The position numbers and the translations under genes are program-made. From the NCBI RefSeq assembly GCF_006715635.1, contig NZ_VFNP01000001.1:3720001-3784000 (forward strand): 64,000 bases of DNA, given 5' to 3'. The stretch is from Streptomyces sp. SLBN-118 (GTDB lineage Bacteria; Actinomycetota; Actinomycetes; Streptomycetales; Streptomycetaceae). Every line of letters begins with the position of its first letter. The first letter of the stretch is position 1. Shown piece by piece: positions 39,732 to 43,624 of the stretch. The notes beneath the pieces were generated by a model. It was not told the origin of the DNA, searched no databases, and was given only the letters and a program-made list of their open reading frames with translations.

Positions 39732-41348
39732 ATGGCGGCCACTGGATCCGAGAAGCAGGGGGCGAAGGCGTATTACGTCTCGACCCCCATCTACTACGTC
39801 AACGACGCTCCTCACCTGGGCCACGCCTACACGACCGTCGCAGGCGACGTGCTCACACGCTGGCACCGTCAGCGTGGCGAGAAGGTGTGGTACCTCACCG
39901 GCACGGACGAGCACGGTCAGAAGATCATGCGCACTGCCGAAGCGAACAACGTCACGCCCCAGGAGTGGTGCGACAAGCTCGTCGAGGAGGCGTGGAAGCC
40001 CCTCTGGGAGCATCTGAACATCGCGAACGACGACTTCATCCGTACGACGGAGAAGCGGCACACGGACCGTGTGCAGGAGTTCGTGCAGGACCTGTACGAC
40101 AAGGGCGAAATCTACAAGGGCGGGTACGAAGGCCCGTACTGCGTGGGCTGCGAGGAGTACAAACTCCCCGGTGACCTGCTGGACGGCGAGGGTGAGTTCG
40201 CCGGGCAGAAGCTCTGCCCGATCCACAAGAAGCCGGTGGAGATCCTCAAGGAGGAGAACTACTTCTTCAAGCTCAGCGAGTACGGGCCGAAGCTGCTGGA
40301 GTTCTACGAGGCCAACCCCGGCTTCATCCAGCCCGAGTCCGCCCGCAACGAGGTCGTGAACTTCGTCAAGCAGGGCCTGCAGGACCTGTCGATCTCGCGC
40401 TCGACCTTCGACTGGGGCGTCCCGGTGCCGTGGGACGAGAAGCATGTGATCTACGTGTGGATCGACGCGCTGCTGAACTACGCGACGGCCGTCGGCTACA
40501 ACGAGAACCCGGCGAAGTTCGCGGAGACCTTCCCGGCCGACGTCCACCTGGTCGGCAAGGACATCCTGCGCTTCCACGCCATCATCTGGCCCGCGATGCT
40601 GATGGCGAACGGCCTGCCGGTGCCCGGCAAGGTGGCGGCCAACGGCTGGCTGATGGTCGGCGGCGAGAAGATGTCGAAGTCCAACCTCACGGGCATCAAG
40701 CCGCAGGACCTGACCTCGCACTTCGGCGTCGACGCGTACCGCTGGTACTTCCTGCGCGCGATCGCGTTCGGCCAGGACGGCTCGTTCTCCTGGGAGGACT
40801 TCTCCGCCCGGTACACCAGCGAGCTCGCCAACGACTACGGCAACCTCGCCTCCCGTGTCGCGGCGATGGTCGGCAAGTACTTCGGCGGCGCGCTGCCGGA
40901 GTCGACAGCGCCCGGCGAGGCGGAGAAGACGGTCCAGGAGGGCCTGGCCAGGACGGTCGCCGAGGCCGACCGGAAGATCGGCGAGGAGCTGGACTTCCAG
41001 GGCGGCATCCTCGCGGTCTTCGACTTCGTGAAGCAGGTCAACGGCTACATCACGGAGCAGGAGCCGTGGAAGGTCGCCAAGGACGAGTCGCCGGAGGGCC
41101 GGGCCCGTCTCGCGACGATCCTGTACACGGCGGCGGAGTCCCTGCGGGCCGTCGCGGTGCTGCTCAACCCGGTCATGCCCGAGACCTCGCAGGCCCTGTG
41201 GGACTCGCTGGGCGCCGAGCACTCGCTGGGTGCCCTCGCGCAGCAGCGGGTCCAGCACGCGGGCGAGTGGGGCAGGCTCCCGGCCGGCGCCACGGTGACC
41301 AAGGGCGCGGTTCTGTTCCCGCGCCTGGAGGACCCGAAGAAGGACTAG
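39732..41348 (+). CDS. metG: methionyl-tRNA synthetase
   Basis: This 538-residue cytoplasmic class I synthetase starts at ATG 39732. It has the HIGH-like motif NDAPHLGHAYTT (about 20-31), a connective peptide with CVGCEEYKLPGDLL and KLCPIHKKP, and the KMSKS loop GGEKMSKSNLTG (about 311-322), then the helical anticodon domain. It charges tRNA-Met and is essential. The stop TAG lies in CTAG, which is the duplicated target of the IS481 element, so the coding sequence is complete. Its probable terminator is now about 2.4 kb away, beyond the insertion. Confidence 0.96.
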   Translation: MAATGSEKQGAKAYYVSTPIYYVNDAPHLGHAYTTVAGDVLTRWHRQRGEKVWYLTGTDEHGQKIMRTAEANNVTPQEWCDKLVEEAWKPLWEHLNIANDDFIRTTEKRHTDRVQEFVQDLYDKGEIYKGGYEGPYCVGCEEYKLPGDLLDGEGEFAGQKLCPIHKKPVEILKEENYFFKLSEYGPKLLEFYEANPGFIQPESARNEVVNFVKQGLQDLSISRSTFDWGVPVPWDEKHVIYVWIDALLNYATAVGYNENPAKFAETFPADVHLVGKDILRFHAIIWPAMLMANGLPVPGKVAANGWLMVGGEKMSKSNLTGIKPQDLTSHFGVDAYRWYFLRAIAFGQDGSFSWEDFSARYTSELANDYGNLASRVAAMVGKYFGGALPESTAPGEAEKTVQEGLARTVAEADRKIGEELDFQGGILAVFDFVKQVNGYITEQEPWKVAKDESPEGRARLATILYTAAESLRAVAVLLNPVMPETSQALWDSLGAEHSLGALAQQRVQHAGEWGRLPAGATVTKGAVLFPRLEDPKKD

Positions 41349-42290
41349 GTGTACTGACCCGTGAGGTTGGGGACGCGGCTGGCGGGTGGCTGGCCCTTGA
41401 GCGCGGTGTGTCCGCGGTGGTGATTGTAGGTGTGCAGCCAGACGGGGTATGCCTCGCGTCGCTCGGTCTCGGTCCGGTAGGGCTGTGCGTAGGCCCACTC
41501 GTCCAGGAGGGTGCGGTTGAACCTCTCCACCTTCCCGTTGGTCTGGGGCCGGTAGGGGCGGGTCCGCTTGTGTGAAATGCCTTGCTGTGCAAGGGAGTTG
41601 CGCCACAGGTGTGACTTGTAGCAGGAGCCGTTGTCGGTCAGGACCGCTGGACGGTGATACCGCATGACGTGAAGTAGGCGTGCGCGCGCTGCCAGAACCC
41701 CACGGCGGTTTCCTTCTTCTCGTCGGCGAGGATTTCGCTGTAGGCGAGGCGGGAGTGGTCGTCGACGGCGTTGTGGAGGTAGCTGTAGCCGGCGCCGGAG
41801 CGGGTCTTGCGGCCTGCCTGGCGTCCGAGGGTCTTGTGGCCGCCGCCGTCGGGGATGTTGCCGAGCTTCTTGATGTCGACATGCACCAGCTCGCCGGGCC
41901 GGTCGCGTTCGTAGCGGCGTATCGCCCGCCCGGTGGCACGGTCCAGGTGGGTCAGGCGGGCGAGGCGGTAGCGGGTCAGGACCCGGTGGACGGTCGCCGG
42001 GTTCAGTCCGAGGAGGTAGGTGATGCGGGCCGGTCCCCACCGGCGCAGGAGGCGGACCTTGATGATCCTGCGTTCGGTGCGGGTCGGTGTCCGGCGTGGG
42101 CTGTGGTGCGGGCGTGAGGACCGGTCGGCCATCCCTGCCTCACCGAGCTCGCGGTAACGGCCGGCCCACCGCTGCGCTGTCGTCGGCGAGACCTGGAAGC
42201 GTTCGGCGGCCCTGCGCAGGGTCCAGCCGTCATCGACCACACAGAGGGCCAGACGCAGCCGGCCGGTCTCGGATGCTCCTATGGTTGTCA
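41345..42290 (-). pseudogene. IS481-family transposase, split by IS110 and frameshifted
   Basis: The main part begins in the IS110 junction at about residue 10 (GASETGRLRLALCVVDDGWT) and runs through a helix-turn-helix and the rve-type DDE domain (ELVHVDIKKLGNIPDGGGHK, YLHNAVDDHSRLAYSEIL). A one-base deletion near 41638-41650 shifts the frame before VLTDNGSCYKSHLWR and RPYRPQTNGKVERFNRTLLD. The first codons (MPHRNAPLT) lie at 43598-43624, beyond the IS110 insertion. The C-terminal VPNLTGQYT is followed by a TAG supplied by the duplicated CTAG target. It is doubly inactivated. Confidence 0.88.
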
Positions 42291-43373
42291 AGCCGCAGGA
42301 GCGAGGTCGGTTTGAGCGATTCGTTCCGTTGGTGTGCTGGTCAGTGCGCGGTAGACCTCTCGGGCAACGAATCGCTTGAGGCAGCGCATGATGTCCTTCT
42401 TGTTCAGCCCTTCCTTGGTGCGGCGTGCGACGTAGGCGCGGGTGCGTTCGTCGAACCGCATGCGGGTGAGCACGATGGTGTGCAGGGCGTTGTTCGCGGC
42501 CCGGTCGCCGCCGCGGTTGAGGCGGTGGCGGTGGGTGCGGCCGGAGGAGGCCGGGATCGGCGCGACGCCGGCCAGGTGCGCGAACGCGCCCTCGGACCGC
42601 ATCCGTTCTGGGTTGTCCCCGGCCGTGGCCAGCAGTTGGCCGGCGGTCTCGGGACCGACGCCGAACAGCTCCAGCAGCGCGGGGGCGGCCTGCTTGACCA
42701 GTGGACCAATCTCCGCGTCCAGCTCAGTGATCTCCTCGTCCAGGGCCTGGTGACGGCGGGCGAGCCGCCGCAGCGCGGCTCGGGTCGCCGCCAGCGGGCG
42801 GGACAGGTCATCGCCGGGCCGCAGCCGGGCCAAAGTCCGTATCAGCGCGGCCCGGTCCAAGCCCGCGACCTGCTCGCGCAGCATCGCGGGTGCCGAGACC
42901 AGCAGGCCGCGGATCTGGTTCATCGCCTGCGTGCGGGCCTTGACAGCGCTGCGGCGGGCGATCCGCAGCACCCGCACCGCCTCGACCACCCCGTCCCGGC
43001 TCTTGGGGGTGCCGGTGGCCCTGCCGGAGAGCACCGCCGTCGCGGCGGCATAGGCGTCGATCGGATCGGACTTGCCTTTCAACCGACGCGTCTTGCGGTC
43101 CGGTCGGTCCACGTCGACGACGGTGACACTCGCCGCGGTGAGTACCCGGGCGAGCTCGGCGCCGTAGGCACCGGTCCCCTCCACCCCCACTGCGGTCAGC
43201 GTGCCGTGCGAGCGCATCCAGTGCAACAGGTCCCTGTAGCCGGGAATGGTCGCCTGGAACTCCCGGTCGGCCAGGTGCCGGCCGATGGAATCGATCACGG
43301 CGGCGTGGTGGGTCAGGCCGTGGGTGTCGACTCCGCCGGTGATCTGCGGCGCGTCATGCGTCATGCTGGTCAT
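42288..43373 (-). CDS. IS110-family DEDD recombinase
   Basis: This 361-residue protein has the RuvC-like N-terminal DEDD domain (ITGGVDTHGLTHHAAVID; VGVEGTGAYGAELARVL; RLKGKSDPIDAYAAATAVL) and the C-terminal Transposase_20 region (LLELFGVGPETAGQLLATAG; FAHLAGVAPIPASSGRTHRH; RGGDRAANNALHTIV) with its catalytic Ser region. It appears intact. The ATG at 43373 was chosen; an in-frame extension to 43520 would enter the non-coding leader. IS110 recombinases work with a structured bridge RNA and leave little or no target duplication. Confidence 0.9.
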   Translation of the reverse strand: MTSMTHDAPQITGGVDTHGLTHHAAVIDSIGRHLADREFQATIPGYRDLLHWMRSHGTLTAVGVEGTGAYGAELARVLTAASVTVVDVDRPDRKTRRLKGKSDPIDAYAAATAVLSGRATGTPKSRDGVVEAVRVLRIARRSAVKARTQAMNQIRGLLVSAPAMLREQVAGLDRAALIRTLARLRPGDDLSRPLAATRAALRRLARRHQALDEEITELDAEIGPLVKQAAPALLELFGVGPETAGQLLATAGDNPERMRSEGAFAHLAGVAPIPASSGRTHRHRLNRGGDRAANNALHTIVLTRMRFDERTRAYVARRTKEGLNKKDIMRCLKRFVAREVYRALTSTPTERIAQTDLAPAA

Positions 43374-43602
43374 GCCCGTCCTTGTGAGTCCGTTCCAGGG
43401 GCGGCACGCGCCGGTCGGACGGGTGGACAAGACAGTGACGGGGCTTCTGGACCAAGCTCCTATGAAGTCACAAACGCCCGTCCGGCCGCGTGCGTGGCAA
43501 CACCCCAGGCGGGCCGACAAATCCGAAGCAGGACAGTCGAGACGTCAGTCAGGGGTCGGGTCAGACCCACCAGCGGCGTCACCGCGAACATCATCACTGT
43601 CA
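42291..43602 (-). mobile_element. IS110-family element nested inside the IS481 transposase gene
   Basis: The IS481 reading frame is continuous if this segment is removed: MPHRNAPLT (43598-43624) joins ACC ATA GGA GCA (42274-42285). TGTCA occurs at both edges (42286-42290 and 43598-43602), so the exact boundary can slide within five bases. The element is about 1.31 kb with a roughly 225-base leader before the recombinase and almost no sequence after its stop. Confidence 0.8.
43374..43602 (-). ncRNA. candidate IS110 bridge RNA leader
   Basis: The non-coding leader between the element edge and the recombinase start occupies the position where IS110/IS621 bridge RNAs are encoded. ACCCCTGAC (reverse complement of 43548-43556) equals the left target flank at 43599-43607. 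GTCACTGTC (minus strand, 43431-43439) is complementary over eight bases to the element's left end GACAGTGA. CATAGGAGC (minus, 43456-43464) equals the right target flank at 42275-42283. Boundaries and folding are not established. Confidence 0.5.
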
Positions 43603-43624
43603 GGGGTGCATTACGGTGGGGCAT
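43598..43624 (-). pseudogene. first codons of the IS481 transposase, cut off by IS110
   Basis: ATG 43624 encodes MPHRNAPLT, the standard start of this Streptomyces IS481 transposase group, and is interrupted by the IS110 edge. Inverted arms TGAGGGCCTTC (43624-43634) and GAAGGCCCTCA (43674-43684) place the start region in a potential hairpin of the leader transcript. Confidence 0.8.

Follow-up and report, generated by a model that had tools for sequence, protein, structure and literature searches.

An IS110-family element nested in an IS481-family transposase gene of Streptomyces sp. SLBN-118 raises the question of whether the leader upstream of its recombinase gene encodes a bridge RNA, and whether that RNA accounts for the place at which the element inserted. 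The element lies on the minus strand of the window, by which we mean the whole 64,000-nucleotide stretch of DNA analysed. IS110-family bridge RNAs, their covariation with targets and their two-loop plan have already been published (PMC11208160), as has the insertion of the IS110-group element ISEc21 into IS3-family transposase genes (PMC11187229); the window element is therefore a new member of a published kind. On the evidence set out below, we hold it very likely that this is an IS110-group insertion sequence whose leader bridge RNA guides the choice of target by base pairing.

Element boundaries and guides in the leader

The same genome holds two IS481 copies without the insertion (L011 and L012), each carrying ATGCACCCCTGACCGAGACCGGCC, which give the empty site as CACCCCTGAC/CGAGACC. 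At the occupied site ACCCCTGAC is followed directly by AGTGATG at the left junction and CATAGGAGCATC directly by CGAGACC at the right junction; since the empty copies have ATGCACCCCTGACCGAGACCGGCC instead, CATAGGAGCATC must be element sequence. This comparison of empty and filled sites, together with the ends of relatives, defines an element of 1,327 bp (42272..43598, minus strand) with its left end at 43598 and its right end at 42272. The left target CCCCTGAC (43599..43606), found in the empty IS481 copies, and the right target CGAGACC (42265..42271) flank the left end AGTGA, or right donor (43594..43598), and the right end CATAGGAGCATC, which comprises the left donor plus core (42272..42283), all on the minus strand. 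One C is common to target and donor at both junctions, so that the insertion point is known to one base, where the preliminary description had put it within five. The element has 225 nt of non-coding sequence upstream of its gene and 16 nt after the stop codon. The host IS481 gene has its 3′ portion at 41345..42291 (minus strand) and its 5′ end beyond 43599; the 3′ portion consists of two overlapping frames with the integrase core divided between two ORFs, so the host gene is broken quite apart from the insertion.

Between these ends lies an open frame for a DEDD/serine recombinase of 361 aa (42288..43373, minus strand, ATG at 43373), which matches the DEDD RuvC domain (PF01548, E 4.1e-23) and the C-terminal Transposase_20 domain (PF02371, E 6.6e-19) as well as the structures of IS621 (8wt6, E 1.1e-9) and ISCro4 (9t56, E 6.2e-11). 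Residues D16, E65, D103, D106 and S276-S277-G278 are invariant in 14 proteins, the relatives being 47–93% identical to the query, and we take them to be catalytic from the IS621 and SG-motif pattern.

All three words that the preliminary description had claimed in the minus-strand leader are present, namely ACCCCTGAC (43556..43548), CATAGGAGC (43464..43456) and GTCACTGTC (43439..43431), and when the 225 nt of the leader were shuffled 20,000 times with dinucleotides preserved, the same words arose 190, 1 and 53 times, respectively. The ACCCCTGAC match by itself is thus no more than a ∼1% event, and it is made secure by the relatives described below. The left target guide is CCCCUGAC (43548..43555, minus strand), with A43556 as a ninth matching base, and it covaries with the left target, as befits the role originally proposed for the ACCCCTGAC word.

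The reading of CATAGGAGC has to be changed. It had been taken for the right target flank, in a sense that the IS621 model does not predict, whereas the two empty IS481 copies show the flanking copy to be the element's own right end. In IS621, the left target guide (LTG) and left donor guide (LDG) pair with the bottom strand and the right target guide (RTG) and right donor guide (RDG) with the top strand (PMC11208160). The leader copy of CATAGGAGC (43456..43464, minus strand) is thus the left donor guide, in the same sense as the right end that it equals, and the supposed departure from IS621 vanishes; this guide is nearly invariant among relatives. The word GTCACTGTC does contain a right donor guide, UCACUG (43433..43438), which pairs with the core C and the AGTGA of the left end, and the donor-loop handshake nucleotides UC (43431..43432), which complement target A8 and G7. 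Its partner GACAGTGA is not wholly element sequence, as had been supposed, GAC belonging to the target and AGTGA to the element, and the eight-base complement is a guide plus handshake across the left junction. Missed in the earlier reading was the right target guide UUCGG (43523..43527), which pairs with target CCGAG through three Watson-Crick pairs and one G-U pair; next to it stand the target-loop handshake nucleotides AU (43521..43522), which complement donor T8 and A7 and not target A8. A further candidate right target guide, GTCTCG at 43543..43538, was discarded: it sits in the stem-loop between the two target guides, and in relatives it is UUCGG that covaries at the corresponding place. 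All four guides follow the IS621 order, and the window leader is truly a bridge RNA gene of the IS110 group.

Covariation, core and fold among relatives

Relatives were sought by DNA in 392 genomes of the genus (that of the window included), 151 of which had matches with E no higher than 1e-20, and by protein in genome contigs, where the best 80 of 134 relative-encoding stretches supplied 79 loci. Left end and left guide could be parsed in 66 of the 109 loci of relatives (L015–L123), the other 43 being cut, broken or too diverged for the parsing patterns, and omission of L088, which is cut by a contig end, left 65 loci representing 58 distinct elements. The 8-nt left guide agrees with the left target at all eight positions in 49 of these elements and at seven in another seven; agreement is imperfect in nine altogether, the worst cases being L067 (6/8) and L035 (5/8). 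Agreement at the five variable positions is 4.86 of 5; reassigning the guides among the elements lowers it to 2.87, and none of 20,000 such shuffles did as well; with a single element per distinct guide (n = 26) the values are 4.77 and 2.26. On a protein tree of 61 relatives the left guide changed at least 32 times, guide and target positions changing about equally often. The covariation that the preliminary description had anticipated for the leader segment at 43548–43556 is thus borne out, and where it had named unrelated flanks beside an unchanged segment as a refutation, guide and target change together. That the leader is instead an attenuator or other regulatory RNA of the transposase, which its position upstream of the gene and its folding would suit, with flank matches arising by chance, is scarcely credible in the face of covariation over 26 distinct guides.

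Another reading would make the CCCCTGAC match a terminal sequence owned by the element and not target at all, and all six copies in Streptomyces sp. I6, described below, do have CGGCTGAC beside the left end. Both empty IS481 copies, however, hold CACCCCTGAC without any element, which refutes this reading for the window copy, and for the relative L051, for whose insertion site an uninterrupted homologue was found, the TGA of the matching word serves as stop codon for a gene, and the homologue of this gene in another genome ends in CTGAC without an element; as a general account we regard it as extremely improbable. The window copy could also be a dead relic that no longer has a working bridge RNA, being the sole full-length copy in its genome, and the exact pattern ACCCCTGACAGTGA had eight matches in the 392 genomes, with the element only at the window and the other seven without a leader, so that it marks no such element in the 391 further genomes. 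We consider this unlikely, though worth bearing in mind, as against an open 361-aa frame with conserved catalytic residues, guides and ends that all fit, and the use of the same 8-nt guide CCCCTGAC by another element, L076, at another site.

The right guides covary as well, the target side more weakly than the donor side. The right target guide, located directly 5′ of GGA[T/A], forms 2.42 Watson-Crick pairs of 5 against 1.89 when shuffled (n = 38), or 3.0 against 1.94 with one element per guide (n = 17), values reached in none of 20,000 shuffles in either case; all five pairs form in L023, L026, L040, L055 and L079 and none in L078. The right donor guide is readable by pattern in 55 of the 58 elements, with CACTGTC accompanying AGTGA ends in 47 of 47 and CACAGTC accompanying TGTGA ends in 8 of 8; of the three others, L082 and L086 have CACTGTG with AGTGA and L025 has no recognisable donor guide. 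Right donor guide and right donor changed three times each on the tree.

Targets end in GAC and donors in [A/T]TC, with C in common at position 9 and A (target) against T (donor) at position 8, although the parsing patterns demanded GAC on the left and TC on the right, so that junction counts lean towards the claim of an unequal core; a relaxed look at ten unparsed loci gave two readable ones, L028 (CAC) and L034 (GAT), both with A at position 8. The core is accordingly AC in the target and TC in the donor, with a single shared base, and the identical core of IS621 was not found. In all 33 aligned leaders the target loop has A opposite position 8, a fit to donor T, and the donor loop has UC, whose U stands opposite the same position and fits target A; the donor-loop count is not free, since leaders were selected with a pattern that included the donor-loop word GTC. 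Three leaders outside that pattern (L082, L086 and L114) keep the U and have G as the next base (UG), which makes no pair with target G7. Donor position 7, A or T, goes with target-loop T or A in 38 of 38 cases, with one change on the tree and one exception, L027, which lies outside this set and lacks a right flank. Near-invariance of the left donor guide and the single tree change at position 7 leave each of these pairings without independent proof. The handshake looks like that of IS621, at positions 6-7 (PMC11208158), displaced by one base into the core. As IS621 itself tolerates other core sequences (PMC11208158), the unequal core is a variant trait of the window subfamily and does not exclude it from the IS110 group.

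For the window leader the folding energy is −91.7 kcal/mol (z −1.98), a value that 8 of 200 shuffles equal, and this is weak evidence by itself. Of 37 leaders tried for alignment 35 were cut out and 33 aligned, L037 and L083 being omitted for their length. Their consensus fold comprises six helices with 40 pairs in total and shows both internal loops; 95.9% of cells are paired, against 90.6% when shuffled and 27–42% when the structure is slid along the alignment, a control that is flattered by the derivation of the structure from the same alignment. Two-sided changes occur at 18 pairs (9.3 shuffled) and the covariation score is 0.258 (0.152 shuffled), and none of 500 shuffles reached the observed pairing, two-sided changes or score. 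The leader thus has a conserved, computationally predicted fold with two internal loops, the absence of which the preliminary description had named as a refutation, and an Rfam search of the leader gave no family match up to E 1. From the single-sequence and consensus folds and pair covariation, the bridge RNA body is predicted at 43404..43583 (minus strand), with the target-binding loop at 43583..43496 and the donor-binding loop at 43493..43404 in the single-sequence fold. A predicted promoter would arise in the circular form from TTGACA near the right end (−35 element, 42286..42291) and GATGAT at the left end (−10 element, 43590..43595), both on the minus strand and 17 bp apart in the joined ends. 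The joined ends of relatives likewise have TTGACN, 17 or 18 bases and mostly GA[T/G]GAT. Of 34 distinct junctions 32, all but L083 and L084, score at least 9 of 12, a level that 0.76% of shuffles attain.

By extension from IS621 and ISEc21, the element would leave as a circle, whose joined ends would make the promoter TTGACA-17-GATGAT and transcribe the bridge RNA. The recombinase would then bind this RNA, whose loops would hold target and circle side by side; cleavage of the top strands behind the position-9 C and strand exchange would follow, placing the circle in the IS481 gene directly behind CACCCCTGAC. Opposite position 8, either loop carries the base that fits the incoming strand, so that strand swapping seems to extend one base deeper into the core than it does in IS621.

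It is also conceivable that only the target loop is used, a short seekRNA with two target guides being active and the donor loop dispensable. For ISEc21 a 58-nt RNA with target-matching regions is reported to be enough for transposition (PMC11187229), and relatives of the window element with a broken donor loop occur in several genomes. In the window subfamily, however, the donor-loop fold covaries and the right donor guide tracks the right donor, and the IS621 donor loop is reported to pair with the donor, target and donor loops also being functional in vitro when supplied as separate molecules (PMC11208158). We judge this short-RNA reading to be rather improbable and prefer a bridge RNA in which both loops serve.

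A second IS110 lineage within bridge RNA genes

In several relatives of the window element the leader is broken. All six copies of the window subfamily (element B) in Streptomyces sp. I6 carry, within the left donor guide at CATAG/GAGC, an element A that is itself an IS110 element of ∼1.28 kb (Pfam PF01548, E 6.5e-29), on the strand opposite to its host, with core CT and target GCTC[CT]ATGA. In its leader, read by eye, GTGCTCCT, CTCATAG, ACAGAGGC and CAAGTCAG match its own target and ends. Element A was found nowhere else in the I6 genome at high similarity, a leader search of that genome found no intact leader of the window subfamily, and a diverged relative there carries a scar of ∼24 bases of element A in the same place. 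In the six composites (L046, L048, L054, L058, L062 and L108) the left target matches the intact target-loop guide in every case, and the recombinase frame is open in five and frameshifted in L108. We had considered these composites as proof that a split bridge RNA works, and that argument is weakened by their variation: the six copies differ at 5 sites, one of them an indel, in ∼1,342 nt of B and at 0 in 1,280 nt of A, which by our own arithmetic has a chance of ∼0.035 under equal rates. The figures lean towards A having entered, or been gene-converted into, the B copies in place, as against joint movement.

With element A as DNA query, relatives came to light in 35 of the 392 genomes (E no higher than 1e-40), and by hand count, with the six I6 copies taken as one, 27 distinct loci have its left flank. 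In 21 of these 27 element A sits in an IS110 bridge RNA leader, a share that may be biased, as the query for these relatives was an A residing in such a leader. An IS110 gene starts ∼80–140 bases away on the other strand at 18 of the 27; L154, L176 and L183 are IS110 leaders by sequence, and L175, L178, L188, L190, L191 and L198 are not. At L181 and L186, with hosts of type C, there is a further IS110 gene ∼400 bases off on the other side.

The hosts are of at least four types (B, C, D and E). The segment hit by A is repeated at the host's right end in E (TATAGGAGC, L177), D (GATAGGAGC, L205) and the C host L208 (CATAGGGGCACC against TAGGGGCA). Among the other C hosts, only about five bases agree in L204 and L206 (CATAGAGGCACC and CATCGAGGCACA), and in L207 no right-end repeat of the segment was found. 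The guides of element A differ with the host, GCTCCT/ATAG going with AGGAGC, GCCCC/GATTAG with AGGGGC and ACCTC/GATGAG with AGAGGT; the left guide is GCTCC with hosts B, D and E, GCCCC with L185 and ACCTC with the AGAGGT hosts, and it is mismatched in L181 and L196. From these sequences the guides appear mostly to follow the host loop. A second IS110 lineage thus probably targets the left-donor-guide segment of other IS110 bridge RNA genes, its guides changing with the host, and this is a segment that the host can hardly change because it must match the host's own end. The window leader itself offers a vacant element A target site, GCTCCTATGA (43456..43465, plus strand). The literature searched, which left out preprints and most subscription journals, held no report of an element that targets the guide genes of its relatives. 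If the reading is true, this would be transposon-on-transposon parasitism written in guide RNA, by an element specialised on the guide genes of its relatives.

Remnants of element A, from ∼24 to more than 600 nt long, lie in the left donor guide of L049, L056, L075, L132, L133, L134 and L154. The recombinase beside them is full length and without stops in L049, L056 and L020 (the same place as L133), and in pieces or partial in L075 and L022 (the same place as L134). Such remnants could be used as natural donor-loop mutants, and broken donor loops offer natural tests of the need for a donor loop, which the bridge RNA and seekRNA papers weigh differently.

Three further observations concern single loci. 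In the leader of L037 a tandem repeat of ∼49 nt sets the left end AGTGAGG directly after the element's guide CCCTTGAC, a layout resembling the outcome of recombination between the element and its guide gene, which as DNA is identical to its target. L047, otherwise complete, lacks GGA in the left donor guide, reading TTATAGCTTGG where relatives have TTATAGGAGCTTGG or CATAGGAGCTTGG. The window genome also holds a partial relative of element A, 76% identical (L201, C1:200332-200723).

Comparison with known systems

Members of the IS1111 group have a DEDD recombinase and a guide RNA encoded downstream of its gene, together with long subterminal inverted repeats. The window element has the combination of DEDD recombinase and guide RNA in common with them and differs in that its guides lie upstream of the gene, the downstream end being 16 nt long.

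Compared with ISEc21 (PMC11187229), the window element likewise has an upstream non-coding region and no reported target duplication, and both elements target a transposase gene that belongs to a different IS family, IS3 there and IS481 here; the target itself is different, and in ISEc21 a target-only RNA suffices. The likeness to IS621 (PMC11208160, PMC11208158) extends to a leader-encoded RNA with two internal loops in the order LTG-RTG-LDG-RDG, to LTG and LDG that equal the top strand and RTG and RDG that are complementary to it, to a junction promoter, predicted here from sequence, and to a DEDD plus serine recombinase. Unlike IS621, the window element shows no large separate 5′ stem-loop in its predicted fold, has a target core AC and a donor core TC where IS621 has CT in both, places the handshake at positions 7-8 and not 6-7, and encodes a recombinase of 361 aa as opposed to 328 (PMC11208160, PMC11208158). 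With it these systems gain a bridge RNA clade from actinobacteria, whose 26 natural guides with their targets, shared core of one base and clean ends are ready material for testing which core and handshake bases matter.
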